A stretch of DNA of 64,000 nt, taken from contig NZ_CP053840.1 in assembly GCF_013201665.1 (NCBI RefSeq), positions 310,001 to 374,000 on the forward strand. Direction: 5' to 3'. Both the position numbers and the translations under genes were made by a program. The notes under the pieces are model-generated. The model made no database searches and was not told the DNA's origin. It worked only from the letters and a program-made list of their open reading frames with translations. Origin of the DNA: Arcobacter venerupis (GTDB lineage: Bacteria; Campylobacterota; Campylobacteria; Campylobacterales; Arcobacteraceae). Below are positions 48,038 to 49,770 of this stretch, in pieces (position 1 is the stretch's first letter; every line of letters starts with the position of its first letter).

Positions 48038-48661
48038 ATGAAATTAGCTGTTTTCGATTTTGATTCAACACTTATGGATGGGGAGACTATCGACTTTTTA
48101 GCAGAAGAGTTAGGTATAGGTGAACAAGTTACAAAGATTACTGAAGAAGCAATGAGTGGAAGATTAGATTTTTTTGAATCTTTGACTACAAGAGTTGCAC
48201 TTTTAAAAGGTATGGATTACCAAAGAGTTGTAGATATTTGCTCAAATCTTCCTTTAATGCCGGGTGCAATGGAGTTAGTTCCTGCACTTCAAAAAATGGG
48301 TTACAAAGTAGTTTGTTTTTCTGGTGGTTTTAGAATTGGCACAACTCCTGCAAGGGAAAAATTAGGTTTAGATGCTGATTTTTCAAATGTTTTACATGAA
48401 AAAGATGGGAAATTAACAGGTCTAATTGGTGGAGATATGATGTTTGGATATTCAAAAGGTGATATGCTTCAAAGAATTCAAGGTTTAATGGGAATTACAA
48501 GAGCTGAAACTTTAGTTTGTGGTGATGGAGCAAATGATTTATCTATGTTTGCCCACGCTGATACAAGAGTTGCATTTTGTGCAAGAGAAGTTCTTAAAAA
48601 AGAAGCAAATGTAGTTATTGATACAAAAGATTTAACAAAAATTTTAGATTATATTAAATAG
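48038..48661 (+). CDS. serB: Phosphoserine phosphatase
   Basis: The 207-residue HAD phosphatase has motif I AVFDFDSTLMDGETID near 4-19, motif II CFSGGFRIG near 88-96 and motif III/IV CGDGANDLSMFAHAD near 164-178. It makes serine from phosphoserine. It is short because it lacks the ACT domain of enterobacterial SerB. The divergent metF lies on the other side of the promoter. Confidence 0.94.
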   Translation: MKLAVFDFDSTLMDGETIDFLAEELGIGEQVTKITEEAMSGRLDFFESLTTRVALLKGMDYQRVVDICSNLPLMPGAMELVPALQKMGYKVVCFSGGFRIGTTPAREKLGLDADFSNVLHEKDGKLTGLIGGDMMFGYSKGDMLQRIQGLMGITRAETLVCGDGANDLSMFAHADTRVAFCAREVLKKEANVVIDTKDLTKILDYIK

Positions 48662-48678
48662 GCTTTATTCTTAAAGCC
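48661..48678 (+). terminator. Small hairpin at the serB stop
   Basis: GGCTTTA-TTCT-TAAAGCC begins on the last base of the serB stop codon. The tail CCTTTAGAG is not a T-run, so this may be a weak terminator or the first element of the structured leader that follows. Confidence 0.4.
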
Positions 48679-48689
48679 CTTTAGAGTTT

Positions 48690-48771
48690 GCTTCTTTAGA
48701 TGAAATTTATTTTCATCGCTGAAAGAAGTTAAAAATGAATAGGTCCCTTTAAAATGGGACATTTTAAAGGA
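48690..48771 (+). promoter_or_regulatory. Structured leader of transaldolase with ribosome-binding-site hairpin
   Basis: Two structures can be drawn. First, 48691-48728 has an outer stem CTTCTTT/AAAGAAG and an inner stem GATGAAA/TTTCATC, separated by an asymmetric internal loop (A opposite GCTG). Second, CCTTTAAAATG (48746-48756) pairs perfectly with CATTTTAAAGG (48760-48770) across GGA, burying the AAAGGA ribosome binding site. GTCCC (48743-48747) can instead pair with GGGAC (48756-48760), which would disrupt that hairpin and free the site. This is the arrangement of a translational switch. No known riboswitch class was recognised. Confidence 0.5.
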
Positions 48772-48777
48772 ATAATT

Positions 48778-49770
48778 ATGAGTTTAAAAGAAGATATTAA
48801 TTTCTCTTTATGGTGTGATTTTATTGAAAGAGATTTTTTAGAAACAAGATTTAAAGAGATTATCAAAAAAAATATTATTCAAGGTGCTACTTCAAATCCT
48901 GCGATTTTTGAATCATCAATTACAAATTCTCTAGCATACAAACAACAACTTGATATGCTTCAAGCAAATAATGAAAAAACTATTTATGAAGAGTTAGCTC
49001 TAACAGATATTAAAAGAGCAGCTTTTTTATTAAATGAATTACATAAAAATGATGCTGATGATGGTTTTATTTCTATTGAAGTTGACCCACTTTTATGTGA
49101 TGATGCAGCAGGAACTATAGAAGAGGGAGTTCGACTTTATTCTTCAATTAGTGCTGATAATGTTATGATAAAAGTTCCTGCAACACAAGCTGGATATATT
49201 GCAATGAGAGAGTTAACTTCAAAGGGAATAAATGTAAATGCAACTTTGATTTTTTCGCCTGAACAAGCAATAAAATGTACTCAAGCTTTAGATGAGGGAA
49301 TCAAAGATTCAAATAAAGATATTAGAGCAGTTGTTTCTATTTTTGTATCAAGATTTGATAGATTAACTGATAATGATTTTAAATTAAAAGGTTTACAAAC
49401 TTCAAAATTAGGAATCATAAACGCAACTAAATGTTACCATGAAATTAACAAATTTGGAAATCCAAATATTAGAACTCTTTTTGCAAGTACAGGAGTAAAA
49501 GGTGATGAATTAAGTCCTAGTTATTATGTTGATAACTTAATTTATCCAAACTCAATAAATACAGCACCACTTGCTACAATCGAAGATTGGGTTAAAGATG
49601 GTTCAAAAGTTGAAACTGCAATTATGAGTGAAACTGACTGTGATAAATATTTTGCAACTTTAAAATTAAAAGGAATAAATATGGAAAATATTTATTCAAA
49701 ACTTTTAACTGATGGTCTTGAATCTTTTAAAGTTTCATTTAGAGATTTACTTTCAAAATTAATTCACTAA
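48778..49770 (+). CDS. tal: Transaldolase
   Basis: The 330-residue pentose phosphate enzyme has QGATSNPAIFESSI near 40-53, the EVDPLLCDDAAGT block near 99-111, and the Schiff-base lysine in DNVMIKVPATQAG near 130. The ATG at 48778 with AAAGGA ahead is the start; an upstream ATG at 48754 lies inside the hairpin and is rejected. The leader before it is highly structured. Confidence 0.93.
   Translation: MSLKEDINFSLWCDFIERDFLETRFKEIIKKNIIQGATSNPAIFESSITNSLAYKQQLDMLQANNEKTIYEELALTDIKRAAFLLNELHKNDADDGFISIEVDPLLCDDAAGTIEEGVRLYSSISADNVMIKVPATQAGYIAMRELTSKGINVNATLIFSPEQAIKCTQALDEGIKDSNKDIRAVVSIFVSRFDRLTDNDFKLKGLQTSKLGIINATKCYHEINKFGNPNIRTLFASTGVKGDELSPSYYVDNLIYPNSINTAPLATIEDWVKDGSKVETAIMSETDCDKYFATLKLKGINMENIYSKLLTDGLESFKVSFRDLLSKLIH

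Follow-up and report, generated by a model that had tools for sequence, protein, structure and literature searches.

What does the leader of the transaldolase gene do in Arcobacter venerupis? In the window, by which we mean the whole stretch of 64,000 nucleotides that was analyzed, a serB-like gene is followed by tal, and the junction between them can be drawn as a series of hairpins. A first-pass annotation proposed that mutually exclusive stems over the ribosome-binding site (RBS) made this leader a riboswitch, a thermosensor, or a protein-binding leader controlling a pentose phosphate enzyme. Here, we argue that the leader probably represents a mobile-like intergenic element that is dispersed among the Arcobacteraceae, brings an RBS of its own, and modulates translation of whichever gene comes next.

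The hairpins are present as described. The perfect 11-bp stem with a GGA loop that buries AAAGGA (P4) was confirmed base for base, and both the GTCCC/GGGAC pairing that overlaps its two arms (P3) and the 38-base compound hairpin with an A opposite GCTG (P2) were found in the sequence (Table 1). Two parts of the leader had not been pointed out, the P1 hairpin and a CTTTAG box, and P1 starts with the final G of the serB stop codon TAG (48659-48661). The P1-CUUUAG-P2 core is very conserved, and the asymmetric internal loop of P2 is kept. Among 152 retained copies, the box reads CTTTAG in 141 and TTTTAG in 11, a count made with a search pattern that permits little else. The 3' foot of P2 alternates between GTAG, GAAG, and GGAG and is base-paired and covarying. 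The plus strand from 48661 to 48746 contains no sigma-70-like site matching at 9 of 12 positions. We note that at three loci of a kdsA-like gene (L205, L238, and L159), P4 appears by eye to be a longer stem of about 16 perfect pairs that keeps its register with P3.

Table 1. Features of the serB-tal junction, in window positions
Feature	Position	Strand	Basis or remark
serB-like gene (phosphoserine phosphatase), co-directional upstream gene	48038..48661	+	ORF; name presumed from the family
Whole element, match to covariance model R1	48655..48771	+	serB end to RBS; 114 bits, for a sequence also among the R1 training sequences; C1:358655-358771 in the window genome (G000)
P1 hairpin GGCTTTA-TTCT-TAAAGCC	48661..48678	+	Sequence; double changes at all 7 pairs in both alignments
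CUUUAG box	48679..48684	+	Nearly invariant; complementary to RBS
P2 compound hairpin	48691..48728 (38 nt)	+	Sequence and covariation
P2 lower stem	48691-48697/48722-48728
P2 upper stem	48699-48705/48711-48717
P2 internal loop	A48698/48718-48721		Asymmetric; A opposite GCTG
P3 GTCCC/GGGAC, 8-nt loop	48743..48760	+	Sequence and covariation; RBS left unpaired locally
P3 arms	48743-48747/48756-48760		GTCCC and GGGAC; overlap both P4 arms
P4 CCTTTAAAATG/CATTTTAAAGG, GGA loop	48746..48770	+	Buries RBS; excludes P3; weakly conserved within orthologues
P4 arms	48746-48756/48760-48770		CCTTTAAAATG and CATTTTAAAGG; perfect 11-bp stem
RBS AAAGGA	48766..48771	+	6 nt before ATG 48778
tal (transaldolase), downstream gene	48778..49770	+	ORF; name taken from the first-pass annotation and our own call

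How the leader holds its RBS differs from what the 11-bp stem alone suggests. The region from 48640 to 48800 folds at -36.6 kcal/mol (z of -3.23), and none of 200 shuffled sequences folded as well. At 37 C, the favored fold of the full leader pairs the RBS with the upstream CUUUAG side and forms P3, not P4. The RBS is predicted to be 92% paired in the whole leader, with RBS G pairing mostly to the CUUUAG side (76%) and to P4 at 17%. Thus, the predicted default is a closed RBS shared among three competing states, and the proposed burial of the RBS holds up as such, but the preferred partner appears to be the CUUUAG side instead of P4. Complementarity between the CUUUAG box and the RBS tail is strong (-5.1 kcal/mol versus -2.1 kcal/mol with shuffled letters). 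It exceeds that of swapped pairs (-4.9 kcal/mol) by little, both partners being nearly invariant.

P3 and P4 were also compared in isolated 3' modules, for which 159 of the 172 copies could be parsed into 124 distinct modules. The two stems are near iso-energetic, with a median difference at 37 C of 0.45 kcal/mol (interquartile range, -1.60 to 2.50 kcal/mol), and over the 124 modules, the median of P4 minus P3 was -0.48 kcal/mol at 4 C and +0.57 kcal/mol at 42 C. The suggestion of a thermosensor fares poorly, as the energies of P3 and P4 stay close to each other at every temperature tried, and the RBS pairing predicted for the tal leader, 0.97 at 4 C, is still 0.91 at 42 C, which is not the melting over the physiological range that defines an RNA thermometer. 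Two other structures were considered and set aside. A leader peptide or upstream ORF is not conserved, as the linker between P2 and P3 has an ATG in 55 of 145 copies and a GTG or TTG in another 23, and the remaining 67 have no start codon there. An H-type pseudoknot of P3 and P4 was ruled out by reasoning, given linkers of 0 to 2 nt.

The element is found far beyond tal. A DNA search with positions 48655 to 48800 found matches in all 31 genomes of the genus, including five in the window genome, and these five and the other genus matches precede different genes. Covariance model R1, built from 25 copies (alignment A1) and giving E-values that are rough, matched all 31 genomes of the genus (E up to 0.1), 82 of 104 family genomes (E up to 0.01; 1 to 26 copies each, 556 matches summed), and 21 of 199 genomes in a sample of the order, 7 of the 21 lying outside the family. 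A census was taken of 172 of 175 R1 matches after removal of two same-place repeats and one identical copy. A start codon lies 1 to 14 nt past the element in 167 of the 172 distinct copies, and the spacing from the end of AAGG to the start is 6 to 9 nt in 147 of the 159 parsed copies. The upstream gene is co-directional in 148 of the 172, and its stop ends at a median of -2 nt from the element. Since R1 itself contains the RBS, the association was cross-checked with R2, a core model without the RBS. R2 found 25 family loci, of which 17 were followed by an RBS, a start codon, and an ORF by script, and the other 8 lay upstream of a start codon by eye. In the family, the element has one orientation to its downstream gene.

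The genes that follow are diverse. Proteins encoded downstream of the 167 copies fall into 81 families by N-terminal similarity and, judging from their N termini, presumably include threonine synthase, CysK, CysD, homoserine dehydrogenase, MetE, HypA, HisA, HisH, IspH, KdsA, IlvD, adenylate kinase, and UreG. Thus, the claim of a structured leader with competing stems over the start signal stands, but control specific to transaldolase or the pentose phosphate pathway does not. A tal-specific riboswitch or thermosensor would account for an RBS covered by stems, yet we consider it very improbable, given the 81 families, the many relatives that lack the element before tal, and a P3/P4 balance that is almost independent of temperature. 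A riboswitch for any single metabolite would not easily be reconciled with such varied genes. The leader may bind a protein or answer to another global factor. Because the element precedes dozens of unrelated genes and nearly always encloses the start signal, it resembles a spreading piece of translation control instead of a sensor for one enzyme.

That the element forms a folded structure is indicated by compensatory change. Alignment A1 was made from 47 extracted copies, of which 13 odd or partial ones were excluded, 34 were trimmed, and 25 were aligned; 91.1% of its cells were paired, and its covariation score was 0.510, versus 0.183 when shuffled. Model-guided alignments of 83 and 71 copies, which are biased towards the model, had 96.3% and 95.2% of cells paired, covariation scores of 0.574 and 0.568 (0.171 and 0.181 when shuffled), and double changes at 23 of 28 pairs in each. 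Alignments A4 and A5 were restricted to matches with E up to 1e-8. The first-pass annotation had held that the structure exceeded chance and had offered covariation among leaders as a check; none of the shuffles was as good, the same arrangement of stems, with compensatory changes, is seen in 154 aligned copies, and covariation is strong in P1, P2, and P3 and weaker in P4.

P4 is absent from the covariance model and hence was examined by an alignment-free swap of arms in the 124 distinct modules, in which the mean Watson-Crick run was 7.6 for native arms and 5.7 for swapped ones. Between orthologues (70 pairs of copies), P1, P2, and P3 together had 134 compensated double, 60 wobble, and 85 broken cells, and P4 had 8 double, 10 wobble, and 32 broken cells, all being counts of sequence pairs and not of events. 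P4 is mostly broken between orthologues and is therefore the least secure part of the structure. Wobbles were scarce, with 90 G-U versus 39 A-C among 4,143 cells and with 30 of the 90 G-U cells coming from one loosely aligned pair. Such scarcity is unusual for an RNA structure and is compatible with a role as a DNA hairpin.

Relatives differ in whether they carry the element at a given gene. Eighty loci related to tal were kept, the nearer ones titled Aliarcobacter, Arcobacter, Poseidonibacter, and Halarcobacter. By eye, the element is present between serB and tal in close relatives (L001, L002, L005, and L007), absent from a compact junction in others (L004, L006, L008 to L012, and L014 to L016), and represented by other subtypes in L018, L024, and L046; apparent remnants lack P2 (L020) or consist of P3 and P4 only (L022). 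The expectation that the stems would be found in close relatives was thus borne out at tal in some, but many Aliarcobacter and Poseidonibacter relatives are without them. Of 30 thrC loci, 4 had the element, 18 did not, and 8 were not read; the window genome and G021 carry it there, and G022 lacks it despite 96% protein identity. Of 30 hisA loci, 3 had the element, 1 had only a P3/P4-like piece, 22 had none, and 4 were not read. Tandem copies occur in two genomes, three at a period of 112 (L181) and two (L182). We conclude from absence at tal, thrC, or hisA in relatives and from the tandem copies that the element is gained and lost. We note separately that two genome records titled Helicobacter pylori and Desulfosporosinus (loci L030 and L037) contain an Arcobacter-like transaldolase at 64 to 65% identity, and the titles look wrong.

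Some copies contain further inserts or lie beside other repeats. An insert of about 30 nt that comprises a CTC/GAGAG hairpin, then a small hairpin and CAAG or similar, lies inside 10 copies (L126, L195, L222, L229, L238, L241, L242, L252, L259, and L260), mostly between the CUUUAG stretch and P2 and, in the single case of L222, in the P2 loop. It is also found reversed, by eye, in the P1 loop of L406, and its appearance suggests a nested mobile repeat of smaller size. A hairpin insert of about 40 nt occupies the P3 loop of L298, L301, L306, and L317, and the P3 arms and RBS are kept in at least L301 and L306. Other P2 inserts, in L085, L086, and L197, resemble each other by eye and have many inverted repeats. 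Two loci of G145 (L183 and L184) have P1-P2 core copies next to flagellin-like genes, and a further repeat common to both loci, with a long hairpin of its own, comes after the core. Finally, cores are closely repeated at L291 (G409) and L294 (G399), and at L291 the next start codon comes 6 bases after the last core.

Might the copies form a family-wide regulon? A global ligand or protein could bind the P1-CUUUAG-P2 core and shift the competition among P3, P4, and the CUUUAG side, making the element a translational switch regulated in trans. The conserved core with its asymmetric loop, the near-equal energies of P3 and P4, and an RBS downstream of nearly all family copies would each suit such a switch. 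Set against them are the 81 unrelated downstream families, a copy number of 1 to 26 with gain and loss between near relatives, and variants at tal itself that lack P2 or both P1 and P2. Moreover, R2 finds related cores outside the family, in genomes that we take to be relatives of Campylobacteraceae and Sulfurospirillum, and these copies retain the CUUUAG box but lack the RBS module. Most of the inspected out-family copies lie away from any RBS, and one adjoins what we take to be 23S rRNA sequence. On balance, we regard the trans-regulated switch as quite unlikely.

How the element might move was approached through its flanks and through candidate transposases. AAGG is found at the left end of 62 of 172 copies (36%) versus 1.5% of control windows, in keeping with a copy of the RBS flanking both sides of the element; P1 also includes the left AAGG, however, which therefore need not be a target copy. 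There was no general excess of target-site duplication, as the longest string shared by left and right flanks was 5.55 for native and 5.36 for swapped pairs, with some excess over swapped pairs at 9 to 10 nt only. No terminal inverted repeats were seen by eye in the alignments. Y1 (RAYT) transposases were rejected as a partner: 31 of 104 family genomes have them, the window genome and copy-rich G009, G028, G045, G058, G145, and G158 have none, and ten Y1 loci that were scanned had no R1 match at E of 1e-4. Nonetheless, we infer mobility, and the element may have spread by duplication and recombination.

A purely selfish repeat of the REP or MITE kind would explain the same dispersal, the tandem copies, and the nested smaller inserts; its hairpins would form in single-stranded DNA for transposition, its targets would be chosen on the coding strand, and its effect on expression would be small. 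The near absence of wobble pairs and a P2 foot (GTAG, GAAG, or GGAG) that resembles REP tags also fit. We nevertheless hold a purely selfish repeat to be unlikely, as orthologous copies in different species show compensated pairing, G-U is more frequent than A-C on the sense strand, and no associated transposase was found. A bolder proposal combines mobility with control: the CUUUAG and CCUUU segments of the element might pair with AAAGG sites, so that the element homes to Shine-Dalgarno sequences, inserts, rebuilds the RBS at its 3' end, and installs a bistable switch before any gene. We offer it tentatively, as doubtful. If true, a bacterial family could rewire translation inside its operons by transposition.

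We favor an element that settles at, and then supplies, a translation start signal. It would settle at a Shine-Dalgarno site, usually between the stop and start codons of co-directional genes, with its 3' end providing the RBS for the downstream gene. Once transcribed, it would form P1, P2, and a 3' module with three options for the RBS, which may be paired with CUUUAG while P3 forms, buried in P4, or free while P3 forms. The balance of these states could result in reduced, tunable translation of whichever gene follows. The element would also separate that gene from its upstream neighbor, and a ribosome finishing the upstream gene would meet P1 first; any coupling would be putative. Structure, covariation, position, dispersal, tandem copies, and differences in presence between relatives are observed, and action at the RNA level and the direction of the effect on translation are inferred along with mobility.

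Discussion of mobile intergenic repeats usually centers on the terminators, promoters, or RNase sites that they carry. A repeat that encloses the RBS of nearly every next gene would be a portable module of translational control, spread through a family (82 of 104 genomes) and acting on core metabolism. Because relatives naturally differ in carrying the element at tal, thrC, and hisA, its effect is open to direct test. We also caution that a single structured leader may be misread as a gene-specific riboswitch.

Translational riboswitches work by competition between RBS and anti-RBS pairing, with mutually exclusive helices over the RBS. The element likewise has such helices and a conserved core with covarying stems, but it is associated with a mixed gene set and not with one pathway, no ligand is indicated, and the proposed Rfam check gave no family match. 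Families of Rfam 15 had 0 matches at the gathering threshold in the 64-kb window, and at eight loci with E up to 1, there were only two subthreshold miRNA matches, neither at the element. An attC recombination site was also rejected, as the box sequences do not fit. Searches of open-access papers, including passages of PMC2147049 and PMC3847290 and also PMC2267715, gave no description of the element. Stav 2019 (PMC6429828) examined Arcobacter sp. L and left Arcobacter-confined regions unnamed, and the element may overlap with what that study covers. ERIC and similar MITEs in operons also lie between cotranscribed genes and fold as RNA; they are mentioned in PMC3049150. The element differs from ERIC and MITEs, however, in having no general or fixed target duplication, as would be made by a DDE transposase, and no terminal inverted repeats seen by eye. 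GTAG-type REPs, as described in PMC3733652, are like the element palindromic and dispersed, with stop codon contact and alternative complementary stem residues, and their GTAG tag resembles the P2 foot. They are, however, 20 to 40 bp long and tied to RAYT transposases, whereas the element is about 117 nt with three hairpin modules, has its GTAG side base-paired, and showed no link to RAYT transposases. Similar in habit are the BOX, RUP, and SPRITE repeats of Streptococcus pneumoniae, which, as described in PMC3049150, are likewise small, dispersed, structured, and intergenic, are cotranscribed with and thought to affect neighboring genes, and include the modular BOX, whose modules may be missing. 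The Arcobacteraceae element differs from those repeats in sequence and structure and in ending, in one orientation, with the RBS of the next gene. Like BOX and ERIC in the broad sense, it occupies many unrelated sites and varies between relatives, and we class it as a dispersed structured intergenic repeat distinguished from the others by the RBS that it carries.
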